DNA of 41,116 nucleotides from a virus: IMG/VR virus record IMGVR_UViG_3300044845_000220, positions 1 through 41,116 of that record; one strand, given 5' to 3'. Numbering within the stretch: the stretch's first letter is position 1; every line of letters starts with the position of its first letter. The notes under the pieces were generated by a model. It did no database searches and was not told where the DNA came from. It worked only from the letters and a program-made list of their open reading frames with translations. Shown piece after piece: positions 5,905 to 26,419 of the stretch. The position numbers and the translations under genes are program-made.

Positions 5905-7881
5905 TTAGTTCTTTGCTTCTCCATATCTACGGTGAGCACCACCGTCAGCGGACAATGGGACACCGGGCATGTAGCGCGGCTCCATTGTCATTTGTTCCAA
6001 GACCCAAGTCTTGGCTTCTTCCACTTCACTGTCGGGCACGAGCGCAATCAGCTCATCATGCACCGTTCCAACCACGGGGTATCTTTTACCAACCCGCAGC
6101 ATTCCGTCTGTCATCACCACCCGCGCCAAAGCTTGGGTCACATTGTTCGTTATCTTTCCAGCATACAACTTGGTAGCGTCTGGCCCGTATACCCACTGGC
6201 TCCTACCTTTTTCATCTTTGACTTCACGCAGATCGGGGTAGCGCAAGCACATCCCGTTTGGCAATTCTATTTCACCCTTCCTGAATGTCAAGCACTTGTG
6301 CGTGTGTTCTTTGCCGTTGACCAGGGCCGACACCAACAGGCTGGAGCACATGTCCCAGAATGAGACAACAGGAGACGCGGTGGCACGGTAGATGTCGATG
6401 ATGCGCTTGGCTGCAATGGCGTGGTGCACCAACTCCGCGTAGGTACAGGTGTGCGGGATATCCCGTAGCTTGATCTCGGTTTCGGACCACTCCAAGAACC
6501 GCTCGGCCATGTCCTTGTTGACGTTCAACGCTTTAGAGAACGCCCTCTCGTAGCGAACCGGGGGAGCCCCAAGGAATCCCGTAAGAAGCTGTGACGCGAA
6601 CGACGACCAGCCCAGACCATAGCCGCACCCGAGTAGCGCTGACTTTGCAGATTGGCGCAGGTCTGGATGAGACTCTTTGGTAAGCCCTGGTATGTTAAAC
6701 ATTTGAGCGCCGAACGCGGCATAAGGGTCACCCCCAGCGCGGAAGATGTCGAGCATATCTGTGTAATCTGATAGCCATGCAAGCACTCGCGGTTCAATCT
6801 GCGATAAGTCGCCAACGACGAGTTGATACCCCTCGGGAGCCATAATTGCTTTACGTAAGAACGAACCGCGCTTGAGGTTTTGCATGTTGATGGCACTGCC
6901 CTTGGCCGCTGTCCACCTGCCAGTCTGCGCACCGTAGTAGGAGAGAGGGACTGGTAAGGGGCCGCGTTGACTAATGTCAAGGAATCTCTGAGCCCTTGTG
7001 CGCTCGGTGGTGGATTTAACTTTGAGACGCGCTTCGCAAAGGAGCGCAACATCTTCGTTCGAACCATTGAGGAGGGCTTGGAAGAGCGCATCGTTTTTTG
7101 CCAGGGCAAGCGTTTGCTTACCTGTGGTCTTACTGATTTTTGTCGGGGGTGTAACGCCAAGGTTTGTAAGAATCTGCGCAAACTTAGGGTTTGACGCAAG
7201 CTCAGACTCATCGATGTTAAGACGTTGTAGTAGCGCTTCACGTATGTTTCCTTCCTCTGTCAATGCTTGTATCAACATCTGCTGGTCAAGCTGCAACACG
7301 GGGCGTGTGTACATCTTGAGCGTCATGTCGATGAGTTGAAGTTCTTTCCTCGGGTAGTCCCAGCCGCCAAGACCAAAGAAAATCTGTTCACACAGCCATG
7401 TGTCATGGCAGCAATACTCGGCCAGTGTGTTCTCCACATCCGCAGGCAGCTCGTCCAGTATGTTCTCGGATGGCGACAGCCCGTCCCCCTTGGGTGGCAG
7501 GCCCAGGTCTTTGGCCAGCTTGGCCAAGCTGTTGCCCACCTCCACACCGCGCAGTGCCCGGCCCATAGACAGCGTGTCCATGATGAACGCTGGGTGTGCG
7601 TCGTAGTGCCACTCCATGATCGACACGTCGAACCCTGCGTTTTGTGCCATGACAGCGGTGGTGCTCCAGTCGATTGACTTGAAGAACTCAGGCAAGTCCT
7701 TGCGTGTCACCCATACTGCGGGTGCTTCGCCGCCAAGCTCTTTCCAAGACAGTCCCCACGCCTTGAAGCGGGGGTCGCGTATGTACTCCTCCATGGTCTG
7801 GCAAGAAAAGCCCAGCTTCACGCCGCGCCCCCAGGCAGTTTCAAAGTCCAGCACGATGGCGCGTTCAAATGGTTTACTCAA
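5905..7881 (-). CDS. polA-like: Family A DNA polymerase with 3'-5' exonuclease domain (658 aa)
   Basis: The N-terminal proofreading exonuclease has Exo I as DFET (12-15), AQNAGFDV near 79-86 (Exo II region) and CHD ending at Asp160 (Exo III). The C-terminal polymerase has motif A GDLSQIEPR (357-365), with L for the usual Y and P for L, motif B from R409 through K413 to YG (421-422), and motif C VHDE (Glu610). All catalytic carboxylates are present. It replicates the phage genome. The start is TTG at 7881, overlapping the previous stop by four bases. The next ATG would delete the Exo I motif. Confidence 0.92.
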   Translation of the reverse strand: MSKPFERAIVLDFETAWGRGVKLGFSCQTMEEYIRDPRFKAWGLSWKELGGEAPAVWVTRKDLPEFFKSIDWSTTAVMAQNAGFDVSIMEWHYDAHPAFIMDTLSMGRALRGVEVGNSLAKLAKDLGLPPKGDGLSPSENILDELPADVENTLAEYCCHDTWLCEQIFFGLGGWDYPRKELQLIDMTLKMYTRPVLQLDQQMLIQALTEEGNIREALLQRLNIDESELASNPKFAQILTNLGVTPPTKISKTTGKQTLALAKNDALFQALLNGSNEDVALLCEARLKVKSTTERTRAQRFLDISQRGPLPVPLSYYGAQTGRWTAAKGSAINMQNLKRGSFLRKAIMAPEGYQLVVGDLSQIEPRVLAWLSDYTDMLDIFRAGGDPYAAFGAQMFNIPGLTKESHPDLRQSAKSALLGCGYGLGWSSFASQLLTGFLGAPPVRYERAFSKALNVNKDMAERFLEWSETEIKLRDIPHTCTYAELVHHAIAAKRIIDIYRATASPVVSFWDMCSSLLVSALVNGKEHTHKCLTFRKGEIELPNGMCLRYPDLREVKDEKGRSQWVYGPDATKLYAGKITNNVTQALARVVMTDGMLRVGKRYPVVGTVHDELIALVPDSEVEEAKTWVLEQMTMEPRYMPGVPLSADGGAHRRYGEAKN

Positions 7882-8153
7882 TTCATGGCCTCTTTGGGTG
7901 GTGCTTCACGCATGTTGATGTAGTTAAAGAAGTTGTCTGCTGCCAGCAGCAGCGTGGCGGCATCCATCTCGTTGCAGTTGACCGTGACCACGCTGGCGGT
8001 CTCGTCAGTTAAGTCGCCCAGCACAATGACAGCAGCGTGCTTGTCCTCAGCGTAGCACTGGAGCAGTGCGTACACCAGCGTTTTGAAGTGGTCCTTTTGG
8101 GCATCGGTCATAGATGCCACTCGGCGTTCTATGTCCTCTTGTGTTATTCGCAT
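7878..8153 (-). CDS. Hypothetical protein upstream of DNA polymerase (91 aa)
   Basis: ATG at 8153 follows AAAGGAACTGCT. The protein has two halves: a helical start (ITQEDIERRVASMTDAQKD) and a beta-like centre (AAVIVLGDL...ASVVTVNCNEMDAATLL). It overlaps the VRR-NUC stop by ten bases and the TTG start of the polymerase by four, so the three are made together. It may be a polymerase accessory protein, but no family was recognised. Confidence 0.7.
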   Translation of the reverse strand: MRITQEDIERRVASMTDAQKDHFKTLVYALLQCYAEDKHAAVIVLGDLTDETASVVTVNCNEMDAATLLLAADNFFNYINMREAPPKEAMN

Positions 8154-8443
8154 AGCAGTTCCTTTAAAGTTTGTTTTACCAATTCAATGTTCTCCTCGTT
8201 GATAACCAGTGCCGTCCCCCCGGCCTGCTGTATCTTGGCCAGCTCCATGTCTTGCAGCGCGGTGGTCTTGCCGTTGCCCGCCTTGCACTCGATGGCGATG
8301 AACGTGCCAAAGTAACAGCAGATGATGTCTGGTATGCCAGCCCTGCCCATGCCGTTTTGCACAGGCGAGAAGTGGTACACCGCGTTGTCATCGAGCAGTC
8401 GCTTGACTGCCTTCTTGACTTTGGCTTCGGGGGTCATGGCCAT
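8144..8443 (-). CDS. VRR-NUC domain nuclease (99 aa)
   Basis: The whole protein is one VRR-NUC (PD-(D/E)XK) domain: GMGRAGIPDIICCYFGTFIAIECKAG (31-56) holds Asp39, Glu52 and Lys54, followed by TTALQ with the conserved Gln64 and a final GTALVI strand. Stand-alone phage VRR-NUC proteins act on branched DNA, like Holliday junction or flap nucleases. ATG at 8443 is chosen because AAGGAAGCAAC precedes it. Its start lies within the upstream HTH gene (56-base overlap). It probably works with the polymerase and helicase in replication or resolution. Confidence 0.85.
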   Translation of the reverse strand: MAMTPEAKVKKAVKRLLDDNAVYHFSPVQNGMGRAGIPDIICCYFGTFIAIECKAGNGKTTALQDMELAKIQQAGGTALVINEENIELVKQTLKELLCE

Positions 8444-12194: not shown

Positions 12195-12836
12195 TCAACC
12201 CCCGAACAGTTTGTGCAACTCGGCGTACATATAGCGGGCGTCCCCCACATCCAGGCCACGCAACAGGCACAGCGCATCGTACACAGCACGCGCTTCAAGC
12301 ACAGGCTTGGCCAGCACCCTATCCAGCGCTTCTCGGCCCTTGTCTATATCCTGGGTAGGCTCGGGAGCCAGCGCGGCGATGCCTTGCGCCTTGGGCTTTG
12401 TGGCTTTGGGCTTGTCGCGGGCTATGCCCAGCTTCTTGTTCATCTCTTTTCTCTTGGTTCCGCTGACCAAGGGCTTGTAGTAAACGCGTTTTGCTTCGAG
12501 GTTGCCCACCTCGTTGGTGCTCACCATTTTGTTGCGAACCATTTGCGAGACGAGGGAGCCTATTGAAGCCTCTTTAAAACCCGCCTCGATAAACACCTTT
12601 CGTATATCGGCGCGTAAGCAGCCAGGGTTGTCTCTGATGTAGACGAAGATGTCTTTGGATAGGTTGCCCGTGAGGGTGAGTTTGCTGTTGCCGTTGATTT
12701 TTGTTTGCACGATTGGTGTCTGTTCCTGTGGTTGTGCTTGCATAGTCTGCTGCTCCTCTTCTTCCCATTCGTTGATGGTGGTTGATAAAACTTGGTTCTT
12801 GATTGCGGTGGTCAATGCGGTTTGAAGGTCTGGCAT
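12195..12836 (-). CDS. Winged-helix DNA-binding protein (213 aa)
   Basis: The centre (about 65-125) reads as a winged helix: DIFVYIRDNPGCLRADIRKV, then a recognition-helix-like SIGSLVSQMVRNKMV, and a wing ending RVYYKPL. This is the MarR/RPA32-like layout with Ser/Gln-rich recognition. Regions before and after are low-complexity and basic (KPKATKPKAQG), with a helical C-terminus. The start at 12836 follows AAGGATTAAAA, two bases after the membrane protein stop. A transcription or replication regulator is likely. It is the second gene after the promoter at 13.1 kb. Confidence 0.65.
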   Translation of the reverse strand: MPDLQTALTTAIKNQVLSTTINEWEEEEQQTMQAQPQEQTPIVQTKINGNSKLTLTGNLSKDIFVYIRDNPGCLRADIRKVFIEAGFKEASIGSLVSQMVRNKMVSTNEVGNLEAKRVYYKPLVSGTKRKEMNKKLGIARDKPKATKPKAQGIAALAPEPTQDIDKGREALDRVLAKPVLEARAVYDALCLLRGLDVGDARYMYAELHKLFGG

Positions 12837-12838
12837 TT

Positions 12839-13057
12839 TTAATCCTTGGCTAGCAGAAAAAAGATGGCGGAAACAAGAGTGAATACGACGGCGGCGTAGA
12901 TGATTGCGCCTTCGATTAAGACGCACCAATCAGGGCGTATGCCAAGCAGTGCCGCTTGTATGCGCTCCTCGTCTTGCGTCATGGTGTTGGGCCTGCCCTT
13001 GTACAGCAGACCGATCTTTACTTTGCCCGTGTCGTAGGGCGGTGTGTGGTAGTGCAT
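12839..13057 (-). CDS. C-terminal membrane-anchored protein (72 aa)
   Basis: This is the first gene after the promoter at 13079-13107. It has GGAGAAGCACAA before its ATG. The N-terminal 45 residues are soluble (YDTGKVKIGLLYKGRPNTMT), and residues about 46-70 are a single hydrophobic helix (IEGAIIYAAVVFTLVSAIFF) near the end. This is tail-anchored topology. Function is unknown. The position suggests early expression. Confidence 0.65.
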   Translation of the reverse strand: MHYHTPPYDTGKVKIGLLYKGRPNTMTQDEERIQAALLGIRPDWCVLIEGAIIYAAVVFTLVSAIFFLLAKD

Positions 13058-13651: not shown

Positions 13652-13681
13652 GATTAAAAGCCCCCAGGGAATTCCCTGGGG
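13652..13681 (-). terminator. Rho-independent terminator after the GATase gene
   Basis: A perfect 20-base palindrome, CCCCAGGGAATTCCCTGGGG (13662-13681), is followed on the minus strand by GGCTTTTAATCA. The stem lies 13 bases after the stop at 13695, which is the usual place. The T-run is short and interrupted, so some read-through to the 13.5 kb genes is possible. This ends the amidoligase/GATase transcript. Confidence 0.75.
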
Positions 13682-13694
13682 ACATTGACACCCG

Positions 13695-14801
13695 TCAGGC
13701 AAGCAAGGCGGGCAGGGGTTGGGCACGCACATGAGACCAATTGAGGTAGTAGCAGAGCACCTCGGCAATCGTACTGGCAGACTTGCCATTGCGCACGAAG
13801 TCGTGCATCGCGGCAATATCGCGGTCGAGCGCGGCTTTGTAGATGTCTTGCTCATACGAGGACAGGTCTTGCTCACGCGTGAAGGTCGTGATGCTTGGCA
13901 CCCAGTTGTCGAAGATGGTATCAATGGTAGCCATGGGCATGGCCTCGAGACACGCCTCGACCGCCTCCACATCTGCGTCAAACAGATACTCACCAAGCAG
14001 CTCGATGTCCTCCAGGGTCATGGACTCAGCGTCAATCATCTCATCATCGACCCACTCGTAGTCGTCCTCGTTGAACTTGGGGTCGTGCGCTGATACAGAC
14101 GCCTTGCGTGGTGCGACCTCCCCCATGTACATATCGTCATAGATGTCATCGCTGCCCCAGCCGCCATACTTGCCGTAGTTGGAATACCGGCTGGCGTGCT
14201 TGCTAGACGAGTAGTATGTGGGTATCAGGCGTGTGGGTCTCCATGCGTAGGTGTTGCTGAACCACAGCCCATCATGCTCGATGCCTTGGTCGTAGTTGAC
14301 ATGGGACATACGCCCCTCGCCGTCCATGAACACAAAGCGGTTGTCGCCGATGTAGTCAGCAACCATGGTCAAGAACGCTTCGTTGTGGATAAGCGCAGGA
14401 TGGTCATGCACAGGGTCAGCAAGGTAGGTCTTGATGAAGTGCCAAGTGTCAGACTTGGTGGTGTCAGCGGCATTGCCTGTCTTCAACACGCCGTTGTGCA
14501 TCATGGCAACATAGCCAGGGACAACATCGTAGGGGTGGCAGTTGATGAGGTCAGTGTCGCCATGCGTAGTCCAGCGGAAGTGGATTGCCAACTCGCGGTC
14601 ATCGTTGGGCAGCTTGGTGATGAACGCAGTCGCATCGGCTTGGCTCTTGGGCAGAACCTTGACGACCTTCAACCCCTTGGTTGTTGAGTACATGATGCCG
14701 ATACCATCGGGGTTCGATGCGTAGATGTCAGCGATGAGGCCGTTGGTGTCGAGCAGGGTCGAGCGGATTTTGGCAGACTTGCCAGTGATGATGAGACACA
14801 T
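13695..14801 (-). CDS. Class II glutamine amidotransferase-like protein (368 aa)
   Basis: MCLIITG at the start places Cys2 as the N-terminal nucleophile of the class II glutamine amidotransferase (Ntn hydrolase) family after Met removal. Further motifs are NPDGIGIMY (29-37), FRWTTHGDTDLINCHPY (74-90, the RxxTHG and NxHP loop) and MMHNGVL (99-105), all typical of the glutaminase fold. These enzymes release ammonia from glutamine and pass it to a partner synthetase. Residues about 200-250 are a Tyr/Ser/Gly/Asp-rich insertion, and the C-terminal 115 residues are an acidic helical region unlike standard members. The partner is probably the amidoligase immediately upstream (27 bases apart), with a terminator straight after. 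Confidence 0.8.
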   Translation of the reverse strand: MCLIITGKSAKIRSTLLDTNGLIADIYASNPDGIGIMYSTTKGLKVVKVLPKSQADATAFITKLPNDDRELAIHFRWTTHGDTDLINCHPYDVVPGYVAMMHNGVLKTGNAADTTKSDTWHFIKTYLADPVHDHPALIHNEAFLTMVADYIGDNRFVFMDGEGRMSHVNYDQGIEHDGLWFSNTYAWRPTRLIPTYYSSSKHASRYSNYGKYGGWGSDDIYDDMYMGEVAPRKASVSAHDPKFNEDDYEWVDDEMIDAESMTLEDIELLGEYLFDADVEAVEACLEAMPMATIDTIFDNWVPSITTFTREQDLSSYEQDIYKAALDRDIAAMHDFVRNGKSASTIAEVLCYYLNWSHVRAQPLPALLA

Positions 14802-14828
14802 AGTGATTTTTCCTTGATTGTTATTTGA

Positions 14829-16700
14829 TTAAACGCGGTCAACACACAGCAACTCAGCGGGTGCTGAATTCTTGGCGGTAGCACGGCGGCGCACGCCATA
14901 CCAGTCGGCAAGGTTGGGATAGGTGTTGTTGGTGGTACGCAACCACTTGATGAAGCTCGAGTAGTCAAGGTCGCGGTAGCTTGCGACACGGCAGAACATG
15001 ACAGCGGCATGGGTGAACTCGATCTGCGCCAATATGCGCTCACGCTTGAGAGACGAGCGGAAGATGCGAAGCTCGATGGTGTTGAAGCTGCGCTCACCGA
15101 CATACTGCACACCCAAGCGGTCAGCCTCGGAACGCTTCAAGCAGGTCGTGTTGACCATGCGGTAGCGGCGTGTGCTCTTGCTCTTGATAGCGTGCTTGGG
15201 GTTGTCGAGGATGTCTTGCTCTTCTGCCGCGCAGTACTCACGCGCTTGCTTGTCCACAGAGGGGTGGCGACCAGCGATACGGCGAATGAAGTCCACATTG
15301 GTGTTGGAGTTGATGAGCATGAGGAATTTGCCCAGCGTCATTGCCGTGAAGGCACGAGAGTCGATGTGGATGTGCATACCGCAAGAACCTATATCCCAGG
15401 CAGAAAACTGCGCTGGTATGCCTTCGCCGAACCAGTTGCTAAAGCGCGTGATGTGCTCGTCTAGTTTGCGTGGTGCAGTCACGACCTCGAAGCCGCCAGG
15501 GGGCAGCGAACCATCGGACTTGCATACGCAGTAGTCTTCGCCCAGTGCGCCGCGCACAAGCTCAACCGCTGAGCCTACGCTCCCCGATGTTGCCATCTCA
15601 AGCTCGATGCCTATGAGTAGGTCACCGAACGGAGACGGCGTGAAGCTCGTGTCCCTTGCCACAAAGTCTGTGACCACAGTCATGTAGCTCATCAAGCGAT
15701 TGGGTTCCTCCGCAGCGGTGTAGTCGTCATCGTCATCATCGTTCTCTGCCAACTCGGAGTCGCGGTCGTATGAGTAGTACGCGTCCTCACGCTCAGACCA
15801 CATAGCATCGTCTGACTGCCAGTACTCTTCCTGGTCTTCGACCCATACTGCGCGGTCGTCACGGCACGCCGCACACCATGTACGCATACGCCCACCATCG
15901 CGCACCTCAACAGTCTCGTGCGCGGGCACCACATGATCGCAGTAGGTTTGCTCCAGGTTGGTCATGACACCTGCGTCACTCAGCGCTGACTCAATAGCAG
16001 GAAACGCTTCAATCATGCGCTCCATGTGGTAGCCCGTGACGGTGTCTGCAAACCAATCATCGAAATCGCCAGCATCCTGGTCTTTGATTGCTTCGCGCAC
16101 CTTAGCGCCCAACTGCTTGAAAGTGCTACGCATATACACGAATCTTTGCGCGTCAATGCGCACACCCTTGTAGTACGCCGTGGTTTCCCGTGCACGATCT
16201 AGCCCCAGCTTGATGCGTGCGTTGCGTCTGATGCGATCTAGTCGTGCGCCAATCAGCGCGGACTTGCGTCCGTAGAACGGAGAGTCCAGCAAGCCAAGCA
16301 GTCTTTGTTGCACCGCATACCCCTCGTAGTTGAACCATGCACGCTCAGCCCCAGTCAGCGGCTCCACGACATATGACGCCTCGTCAAACGCAACGCTCCA
16401 TGTGTTGTTGTCGATCATGGACTGCATAGCCTCGTCTATGCTGGTGAGTGACAAGACTGAATTCATATCAGAGTAAGAGCGACTGAGCCACGGGGACTCA
16501 ATGCCTGCACTGCGCGTTGCTTCAACGAAGCAGGTGTTCGGGTTGTTGAACAGACAGGCGTTGGATACGCCCTTGATGGCAAGCCACACACGAGTGTTGA
16601 AAGCTTCGGCTACGAACACATGGCGGTGCTTGATGTGGTTGACGTTTGTTGCGTCAAGATCATCGTTAACGAAAGTAAATGTTGCGTGATAGATTCTCAT
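14829..16700 (-). CDS. Amidoligase-family (COOH-NH2 ligase) protein with novel N-terminal region (623 aa)
   Basis: Residues about 360-575 match the amidoligase fold (glutamine-synthetase-like ATP enzyme): GIELEM (364-369), KSDGSLPPGGFEVVTAP (394-410), CGMHIHID (440-447), RRYRMVNTT near 511-519 and TIELRIFRSS (541-550). These hold the expected metal and ATP ligands (two Glu, Asp, His, Glu/Arg). Such enzymes join a carboxyl group to an amine. The first 360 residues match no fold known to me; they include a possible zinc pair (C254/H256 with C276/C279) and a seven-Asp run. ATG at 16700 follows GGAGAATGCA. A product or substrate cannot be named, but a paired GATase suggests ammonia supply or peptide-amide formation. 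Confidence 0.8.
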   Translation of the reverse strand: MRIYHATFTFVNDDLDATNVNHIKHRHVFVAEAFNTRVWLAIKGVSNACLFNNPNTCFVEATRSAGIESPWLSRSYSDMNSVLSLTSIDEAMQSMIDNNTWSVAFDEASYVVEPLTGAERAWFNYEGYAVQQRLLGLLDSPFYGRKSALIGARLDRIRRNARIKLGLDRARETTAYYKGVRIDAQRFVYMRSTFKQLGAKVREAIKDQDAGDFDDWFADTVTGYHMERMIEAFPAIESALSDAGVMTNLEQTYCDHVVPAHETVEVRDGGRMRTWCAACRDDRAVWVEDQEEYWQSDDAMWSEREDAYYSYDRDSELAENDDDDDDYTAAEEPNRLMSYMTVVTDFVARDTSFTPSPFGDLLIGIELEMATSGSVGSAVELVRGALGEDYCVCKSDGSLPPGGFEVVTAPRKLDEHITRFSNWFGEGIPAQFSAWDIGSCGMHIHIDSRAFTAMTLGKFLMLINSNTNVDFIRRIAGRHPSVDKQAREYCAAEEQDILDNPKHAIKSKSTRRYRMVNTTCLKRSEADRLGVQYVGERSFNTIELRIFRSSLKRERILAQIEFTHAAVMFCRVASYRDLDYSSFIKWLRTTNNTYPNLADWYGVRRRATAKNSAPAELLCVDRV

Positions 16701-16751
16701 TGCATTCTCCAGTTATGGTTGTGTGCCTGTACCCGACAGGCGGCGGTTTGT

Positions 16752-16768
16752 GGGAGAGAGTCTCTCCC
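16752..16768. repeat. Dispersed palindrome GGGAGAGA-N-TCTCTCCC, copy 1
   Basis: A perfect 8-base inverted repeat around one base (G here). It lies three bases after the stop at 16771. A second hairpin (GCCTGT at 16725-16730 with ACAGGC at 16736-16741) follows before the amidoligase ATG. No T-run follows it. Confidence 0.85.
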
Positions 16769-16770
16769 GA

Positions 16771-16974
16771 TTACTGCAAGTGATTTTCAATTTCATTCAA
16801 AATACACATAGCAATGTCTTGCTGGTTCAGCACCAGTGCGCCCTGCACCTGGATAACTAAGTCGAGCAAGCGTGCGCGTTCAGCGTCAGCCAGGGCTGAC
16901 TGCGCGTCTTCTCTGTCGATCAGGTCTTGGTACGCGTCCATGACCGCGTAGTGGTGTGCGTCTAGTCCTTTCAT
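16771..16974 (-). CDS. Helical hypothetical protein (67 aa)
   Basis: The chain is almost wholly helical (HHYAVMDAYQDLIDREDAQS, then RARLLDLVIQVQGALVLNQ) with no catalytic motif. It overlaps the 59-residue gene upstream by ATGA and ends just before palindrome copy 1. It is the last gene before the amidoligase/GATase pair. Function is unknown. Confidence 0.6.
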   Translation of the reverse strand: MKGLDAHHYAVMDAYQDLIDREDAQSALADAERARLLDLVIQVQGALVLNQQDIAMCILNEIENHLQ

Positions 16975-18537: not shown

Positions 18538-19197
18538 TCACAGTCCATGCCATGTTGTTGGCACAGGTTCGCCCATGGGCAGACGCTTGATGGTGTCAAG
18601 CGCTTGACTGATTTGCTCTATGCGGTCTTTGTCCCCCTCGGTCTGCGCCCGCTCCAGGTCTTTGGTCGTGCGCCTGAGTAGCCTGTCCCTTTGCTTGTTG
18701 TGCAGGATGGCGGGCACTGTCCGCTCAAATGGGCGCTTGCGCTTTGCTCGTACTACAGGCGGTATGGCATCGAACAAGGCAATCACGCGTTCCCTGATGT
18801 GAGACGGCACATGGTCGCACCAGTGCGTGCGCTCGGGGTTCAACTGCATGGGTGTTTGAGATTTTTCCCTCTTGAGTAACTCAAGCTTGCCGCGCAGTGT
18901 GTCGAGCACCTGGATGTAGGCTTGCAAGGCAAGCGTGCGGGCATCCCCAGATTTTGCCGCTTTGTAGCCCAGCATGGAGCGCACGACCTTGCGCTCGTGC
19001 ATGAGCGGCGCAATGAATTCCCCCCAGGTGTGGTCAAGCTGGCGCTTGTGTGCGCGTTGTGCCTTGAGATTTTTCCGCATTTCACGCACTTGCTCTTTCA
19101 CCAGCTCGACCGCTTCGGGCGAGTCGTACCGCTTGCTCAGTGCGTTGTGCAAGTCGCGCTCACTCATTTGGGTGTAGCTCGATAGTCCTTTTGGCAT
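18538..19197 (-). CDS. Basic helical protein of unknown function (219 aa)
   Basis: The start MPKGLSSYTQMSERDLHNAL at 19197 follows AAAAAGGACACATC. An earlier reading from 19266 would run into the inverted repeat. The chain is rich in Lys and Arg with long helices (VREMRKNLKAQRAHKRQ near 33-49; RLLRRTTKDLERAQTEGDK late). That suggests nucleic-acid binding. It is the first gene downstream of the candidate origin on this strand, so an initiator or origin-binding role is worth testing, but no replication-initiator motif is seen. Confidence 0.6.
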   Translation of the reverse strand: MPKGLSSYTQMSERDLHNALSKRYDSPEAVELVKEQVREMRKNLKAQRAHKRQLDHTWGEFIAPLMHERKVVRSMLGYKAAKSGDARTLALQAYIQVLDTLRGKLELLKREKSQTPMQLNPERTHWCDHVPSHIRERVIALFDAIPPVVRAKRKRPFERTVPAILHNKQRDRLLRRTTKDLERAQTEGDKDRIEQISQALDTIKRLPMGEPVPTTWHGL

Positions 19198-19239
19198 GAT
19201 GTGTCCTTTTTCGGTCTGTAAGTATCCATGATTAGAGCA

Positions 19240-19315
19240 ACTTTCCCCCCGTTTGGACAGTTGCAAGTGCTTGATTGTACGCGGGTATGCGCTGTACTGT
19301 CCACTCTATCTATCT
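19240..19315 (+). repeat. Left arm of interrupted inverted repeat
   Basis: Conserved blocks in order: ACTTTCCCCCCG, TGGACA, AAGTGCTTGATT, ACTGTCC, then CTATCTATCT. The same blocks occur in reverse complement and in mirror order at 19450-19525, with gaps of 2, 5 and 19-20 bases matching in both arms. Confidence 0.8.
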
Positions 19316-25798: not shown

Positions 25799-25989
25799 TT
25801 CAAGATTTCGCACGCGTATTGCGCGAACAAATACGCACCGACATGAACAACTACGCAGATGACTGCGCGGGGGGTTCGTGCCGCACTTTTGAAGAGTACC
25901 AAAAACTTTGCGGGGTCATCCAGGGTCTGGCCATCGCAGAGCGTTACATCATTGACCTTGCAGAGAAAGTTGAAAAATCCGATGAGTGA
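25795..25989 (+). CDS. Small hypothetical protein between portal and co-chaperonin (64 aa)
   Basis: It starts on the ATGA shared with the portal stop. The chain is helical with Cys34 and Cys39 around a short loop (DCAGGSCRTFEEYQKLCG) and an acidic tail. The fixed position between portal and GroES-like genes suggests a head-assembly or accessory part. Function is unknown. Confidence 0.65.
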   Translation: MIQDFARVLREQIRTDMNNYADDCAGGSCRTFEEYQKLCGVIQGLAIAERYIIDLAEKVEKSDE

Positions 25990-26419
25990 ACTCGCACTTG
26001 AACCAGGGCAGTTTGCCCCGCCTGAAGCAATCCAGCCCGTCGATGCCCCGGCAGAAGACGCAAACAACGATGAGAAAGCAACCATGCTGCCAGAGCCAAC
26101 AGGCTGGAAGCTGCTGTGTGCGGTGCCAGACATATCTGAAAAGATTGACGGTACTGAGCTTGATCTGGTGAAAGCATCATCCGTCATGCGCCAAGAAGAA
26201 CACGCCACAACTGTTCTGTTTGTGCTCAAGGTCGGCCCTGACGCATACAAAGACTCCACCAAGTTCCCCGCAGGCGCGTGGTGCAAGGCAGGCGACTTTG
26301 TACTGGTACGTACCTACTCGGGTACGCGCTTCAAAATTTTCGGTAAAGAGTTTCGCTTGATTAACGACGATCAAGTCGATGCTGTTGTGCAAGACCCTCG
26401 CGGGTTAACCCGCGCTTGA
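25982..26419 (+). CDS. GroES-like co-chaperonin (145 aa)
   Basis: The start at 25982 overlaps the upstream stop. After a 35-residue acidic, Pro-rich leader, the body reads GWKLLCAVPDISEKIDGTEL, then TTVLFVLKVGPDAYKDSTKF, WCKAGDFVLVRTYSGTRFKI, and a closing EFRLINDDQVDAVV. This follows the cpn10 beta-barrel order: first strand, mobile loop, GxxxxxGD-type hinge, last strand. Phage versions replace host GroES to fold the capsid protein with host GroEL, as T4 gp31 does. The location just before scaffold and capsid fits. Similarity to GroES is by pattern, not by alignment. Confidence 0.7.
   Translation: MSELALEPGQFAPPEAIQPVDAPAEDANNDEKATMLPEPTGWKLLCAVPDISEKIDGTELDLVKASSVMRQEEHATTVLFVLKVGPDAYKDSTKFPAGAWCKAGDFVLVRTYSGTRFKIFGKEFRLINDDQVDAVVQDPRGLTRA

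Follow-up and report, generated by a model that had tools for sequence, protein, structure and literature searches.

A conserved amidoligase-glutamine amidotransferase gene pair in a phage genome and its possible role in glutamine-dependent amide formation

Layout and surroundings of the gene pair

The virus record analyzed here (the window, meaning the whole stretch of 41,116 bases) contains terminase, portal, DNA polymerase, helicase, and exonuclease genes. A preliminary description had placed an amidoligase and a class II glutamine amidotransferase (GATase) side by side with a spacing of 27 bases, and both open reading frames were indeed found on the minus strand at 14829-16700 and 13695-14801, with all of the motifs quoted for them. 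The features of the locus are as follows.

14829..16700, minus strand: amidoligase gene, 623 amino acids, ATG start; Amidoligase_2 match above the cut-off, glutamine synthetase-like fold
15966..16700, minus strand: ligase residues 1-245, variable N-terminal region, from low identity among near homologues in the alignment
15756..15965, minus strand: ligase residues 246-315, predicted zinc module, C254-x-H256 ... C276-x-x-C279, pLDDT mostly above 90
14898..15638, minus strand: ligase residues 355-601, catalytic domain, from invariant alignment columns and fold matches; motifs GIELEM 364-369, KSDGSL 394-399, E405, CGMHIHID 440-447, R478, and TIELRIF 541-547
14802..14828, minus strand: intergenic gap of 27 bases from ligase to GATase
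14811-14815, minus strand: AAGGA, a ribosome-binding-site-like stretch in the gap, read from the sequence
13695..14801, minus strand: class II glutaminase-fold (GATase) gene, 368 amino acids, from alignment, Pfam matches of homologues, model, and fold matches
14217..14801, minus strand: GATase residues 1-195, glutaminase core, from invariant or near-invariant columns and the model; Cys2 nucleophile, HFRWTTHG 74-81, CHP 88-90, HNG 102-104, and D118
13749..14216, minus strand: GATase residues 196-351, low-confidence linker (196-262) and C-terminal helical domain (263-351), from the model
13660..13683, minus strand: terminator-like hairpin 3' of the GATase gene, with a 10-pair stem and a short T tail

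The last of these agrees with the terminator that had been proposed to follow the GATase gene, and a hairpin is present at the equivalent place in ten relatives, with differing stem sequences. Two further hairpins lie ahead of the ligase gene at 16701-16773, one of them with a perfect stem (GGGAGAG/CTCTCCC). The pair shares its strand with the DNA polymerase, helicase, and exonuclease genes and is not grouped with the structural genes.

The flanking genes at 18541-19266 and 12198-12929, neither of which has a named function, were matched in 67 and 63 of the fetched loci, respectively (counts not deduplicated); the product of 12198-12929 weakly resembles a transcriptional activator family. These two genes and the terminase gene were considered as a third conserved partner and rejected, as their conservation within the near phage group looks like the synteny of that group. 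Elsewhere in the window, the product of 25859-26416, just after the portal gene, has a C-terminal part resembling the GroES co-chaperonin (match to phrog_3188).

Families, folds, and accessory regions of the two proteins

The assignment of the first protein to the amidoligases was borne out at several levels. It matches Pfam Amidoligase_2 (PF12224) with 26.9 bits at a cut-off of 22, and 35 of the 36 aligned ligase homologues match the same family (E 0.01 or better). Residues G364, E366, E368, D396, S398, E405, C440, G441, H443, H445, R478, T541, E543, and R545 do not vary across homologues with identities as low as 21%, those of the ExE, HxH, and ExR motifs being invariant in 36 sequences. The alignments used for structure modeling contained no rows from named phage records. 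The ligase model has a mean pLDDT of 78.6, with values mostly between 84 and 97 in the catalytic domain and a weak patch around residues 480-520. Its fold matches include glutamine synthetase (GS), YbdK, and the Pup ligase PafA, as well as Dop, and many phage amidoligases, that of phage tf among them. The matches in the PDB are modest (best E 5e-4), with low TM-scores that can be expected for a multi-domain query, and they agree among themselves on the superfamily; a search of solved structures with the ligase sequence profile gave no match.

For the second protein, the match to Pfam GATase_4 stays below the threshold (18.2 bits, cut-off 23), this cut-off being a detection threshold rather than a biological feature, and the family is matched by 26 of 32 GATase homologues (E 0.01 or better). 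Cys2, R76, T79, G81, H102-N103-G104, and D118 are invariant and H80 is nearly invariant across 32 sequences; the counterparts of these residues in GlmS are its nucleophile together with its glutamine-binding and oxyanion residues. In both proteins, the catalytic residues stay invariant at identities as low as about 21-25%. The pLDDT of the AlphaFold model exceeds 90 across most of residues 1-190, and the model matches the glutaminase domain of GlmS (best match, E 3.5e-06), EgtC, and PurF. The proposed class II GATase family is thus supported by Cys2 and the core motifs, the matches of the homologues, and a GlmS-type fold, and the ligand residues are retained in both proteins. The preliminary description had also mentioned inserts in the GATase. 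Extra sequence is present, mainly as the linker (196-262) and the helical domain (263-351) rather than as insertions within the glutaminase core.

Both genes are under purifying selection. Between the window and its near relatives, dN/dS is about 0.32-0.38 for the ligase and about 0.07-0.13 for the GATase, the ranges over all near pairs being 0.28-0.40 and 0.07-0.19, respectively. The dN/dS values, the invariant motifs, and the linkage of the two genes rule out chance or spurious reading frames.

The ligase carries a long region ahead of its catalytic domain. Among near homologues, mean identity to the window ligase is 62% in the catalytic domain vs. 12-18% in residues 1-245. Within the adjoining residues 246-315, C254-x-H256 and C276-x-x-C279 are kept in all 29 near homologues in the alignment (C276 and C279 were also counted separately), a pattern that is likely to form a zinc site. 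A CxxC ahead of the catalytic domain also occurs in the ligases of a Marvin-group phage, MW202733, vB_AciJM_313, and a contig labelled Lokiarchaeota (L105). The last contig had been considered as evidence for an archaeal host and was dropped, given that it encodes a DnaB-type helicase and an SSB and could be a phage contig binned in error. Taken alone, the predicted zinc module shows similarity to segments of proteins from Vibrio phages (VP7, 37% identity, E 3e-3; vB_VpP_DE17, 66 columns at an rmsd of 1.6), and it may therefore be a mobile domain.

Linkage of the two genes and comparison with known systems

To assess the linkage, iterated profiles were used on the fetched loci, which contained 79 non-redundant ligase open reading frames; four were too near a contig edge, leaving 75 that were testable. 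A GATase lies within 400 bases downstream of the ligase in 70 of these 75. The two genes are separated by a gap of 1 kb in locus L023 and of 444 bases in L034, while in L026 the ligase reading frame is split and its second half is paired with the GATase. Only the ligases of L099 and L131 (Clostridioides difficile phage AR1086-1) have no GATase nearby, and conversely a GATase without a ligase in its locus was seen in only 1 of 82 non-redundant cases (a Bifidobacterium phage, L134). Homologues occurring apart from each other, which would speak against a joint role, are therefore not what is seen in nearly all loci. The sample behind these counts is not neutral, as the loci were collected partly with the GATase and partly with the ligase as the query, each query finding the other gene.

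Shared gene order inside a single phage group accounts for part of the linkage. The pair is also intact amid different neighbors, namely in 29 loci from bacterial genome contigs, in the Marvin-group phage, in OM43 phages, and in tf and phiEco32, and Acinetobacter phage vB_AciJM_313 has two separate pairs (L133 1813-4726 and L132 2825-5798). Around the distant loci lie, among others, genes for terminases and SSB, a MobA/MobL gene, and CRISPR genes. In Butyricicoccus pullicaecorum (L117 1-12642), the pair is flanked by CRISPR-associated genes (Csd1, Cas3-like) on one side and a MobA/MobL gene on the other, and this position in a bacterial genome weakens a virion-specific reading. Several amidoligase loci were found in this same genome. 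Given the near-universal linkage, a joint function is a safe assumption, and the idea in the preliminary description that the two proteins act together is well supported.

In locus L023, an open reading frame whose translation reads as an HNH endonuclease lies between the ligase and GATase genes (7333-8384), and phage UFV-P2 has an HNH gene in the same position. These two cases suggest repeated insertion at the junction.

Amidoligase and GATase enzymes of this kind are already known from phiEco32, tf, UFV-P2, PSA-HP1, and OM43 phages. The arrangement in phiEco32, LUZ24, tf, and RIO-1 is referred to as a "peptidoglycan modification" cassette, a description credited in PMC10580990 and PMC5498523 to Iyer et al. 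(2009). In tf and phiEco32, the cassette comprises a COOH-NH2 ligase, the amidoligase, the GATase, an ATP-grasp protein, and a GGCT-type gene. The core order of Amidoligase_2 followed by a class II GATase and the catalytic motifs are alike in the window. The ligases differ in that about 350 residues, including the predicted zinc module, precede the catalytic domain in the window and only about 25 do so in tf and phiEco32. Moreover, no match to the COOH-NH2 ligase (PF14395), to GGCT (PF06094), or to an ATP-grasp ligase like tf_24 was found in the window and 19 related records, which may be incomplete, although G017, whose ligase is identical, spans 64.6 kb; the controls were positive for the first in tf and phiEco32 and for GGCT, and the ATP-grasp ligase was found in both phages. 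Membership in the full five-enzyme cassette of phiEco32 was rejected, as these three partner genes were not found, and the window pair is a reduced two-gene form of this known kind of cassette with a distinctive ligase head.

Other relatives share the two-gene core. The OM43 phages MEP401 and MEP402, reported to have both enzymes (PMC10580990), and Caudoviricetes MW202733 likewise have an amidoligase directly followed by a GATase, but at 21-28% identity, with a shorter GATase C-terminus and another ligase N-terminus. In the mycobacteriophage Marvin group, gp105 is an amidoligase with a CxxC before its catalytic domain and is directly followed by gp106, a GATase with Cys2; the sequences are distant, the host is actinobacterial, and the deposited annotation names both proteins glutamine amidotransferase. 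The EgtA/EgtC pair also combines a GS-superfamily ligase with a class II GATase-fold enzyme, and EgtC is among the fold matches of the GATase. EgtA and EgtC form a ligase and gamma-glutamyl hydrolase pair in which EgtC acts as a hydrolase in a multi-enzyme pathway; no other gene of that pathway was seen at the window locus. A known anti-phage defence family was rejected, since eight proteins gave no match to the PADLOC families, a library of defence rather than anti-defence models.

Published proposals for such pairs are cell-wall modification against superinfection or the synthesis of secondary metabolites, and for a planctomycete phage an involvement in the metabolism of nitrogen and amino acids was put forward (PMC10945688). 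Searches for the exact pair turned up little, and no account of a tested reaction or target was encountered.

Proposed reaction and alternative explanations

Our favored explanation is that the pair constitutes a two-protein, glutamine-dependent amide-forming enzyme that would amidate a carboxylate, perhaps in the cell envelope, and we assign it a probability of about 45%. It is supported by the invariance of the ATP/metal-binding and glutamine-hydrolysis residues in distant homologues, by the fold matches to GS, YbdK, and PafA and to the GlmS glutaminase, and by the linkage to a GATase in nearly all loci together with the order and motifs shared with phiEco32 and tf. The strand of the pair and its position with the replication genes were also counted in its favor, while the unpaired ligases of L131 and L099 count against it.

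According to this explanation, the pair would be made during infection, Cys2 of the GATase would hydrolyze glutamine to release ammonia, and the GS-fold ligase would activate a carboxylate with ATP, to which the ammonia would be joined to give an amide. Substrate binding would probably fall to the ligase's CxH...CxxC module and its variable N-terminal region. The target would most likely be a carboxylate in host envelope peptides or in another host peptide, and its modification could favor the infecting phage, for example through exclusion of competitors or superinfecting phages. We infer the transfer of ammonia between the proteins, the target, and the benefit, and the envelope as a possible target is carried over from the published proposals. 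As the sequence alone does not reveal the substrate, the earlier suggestion that the pair forms a modification system directed at some part of the phage or host is likewise kept as an inference.

The main alternative is a ligase that attaches an amino acid, glutamate or a different one, to a peptide or small molecule, with an NTN-hydrolase that removes or trims a gamma-glutamyl group; EgtA and EgtC work in this way during the synthesis of ergothioneine. To our knowledge, there is no synthetase in which a class II glutaminase has been demonstrated to pass ammonia to a GS-fold ligase, and this, together with the fold match to EgtC, keeps the alternative open. YbdK-type ligases are among the fold matches of the ligase, and R76 and D118 of the GATase would, judging from GlmS, bind a gamma-glutamyl substrate as well as glutamine. 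In addition, a published cassette paper groups the GATase with degradation genes, and related cassettes include GGCT, a gamma-glutamyl enzyme. The two-gene form, however, shows no enzyme that would act between addition and removal, unless the host supplies it. With no COOH-NH2 ligase, GGCT, or ATP-grasp partner in this form, adding gamma-glutamate and removing it again without a step in between would be futile. We therefore prefer the donation of ammonia to the ligase and regard a gamma-glutamyl hydrolase as unlikely, at odds of perhaps one in four.

Instead of changing the envelope, the pair might make a modified nucleotide, a phage DNA base, or a small anti-defence molecule. Its place among replication genes would fit such a role, as would the restriction-modification, restriction-alleviation (Lar), or CRISPR genes near some relatives and the polynucleotide kinase gene near the pair in vB_AciJM_313. 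No nucleotide-hypermodification or 7-deazaguanine family turned up in the scan of window proteins, and no PADLOC family was matched, although that library is built from defence rather than anti-defence models; we consider this role improbable. The occurrence of PafA and Dop among the fold matches of the ligase also raises the idea that it attaches a tag, either a peptide or a protein, to proteins of the host or the phage, with the GATase as a helper or remover. The GATase is not Dop-like, and no conserved Pup-like small gene was noticed beside the pair across lineages in a non-systematic look, so that tag conjugation appears very improbable.

The pair is a real, conserved, and selected two-enzyme unit; pairs of its type are found widely in phages, and their discussion goes back to 2009. 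If amide formation by ammonia donation holds true, the synthetase architecture, in which a dedicated class II glutaminase supplies a GS-fold ligase, would be one with no demonstrated example known to us. The two-gene form, which lacks the other cassette enzymes, makes the reaction approachable with two purified proteins, and the variable N-terminus of the ligase is a pointer to substrate recognition. It is a speculative and rather doubtful extension that a GS-fold ligase fed by its own class II glutaminase and fitted with a changeable substrate-recognition head, spread over phages and mobile elements, serves as a general envelope-altering or counter-defence factor. Should the envelope be the target, the pair would bear on how phages exclude rivals from infected cells.
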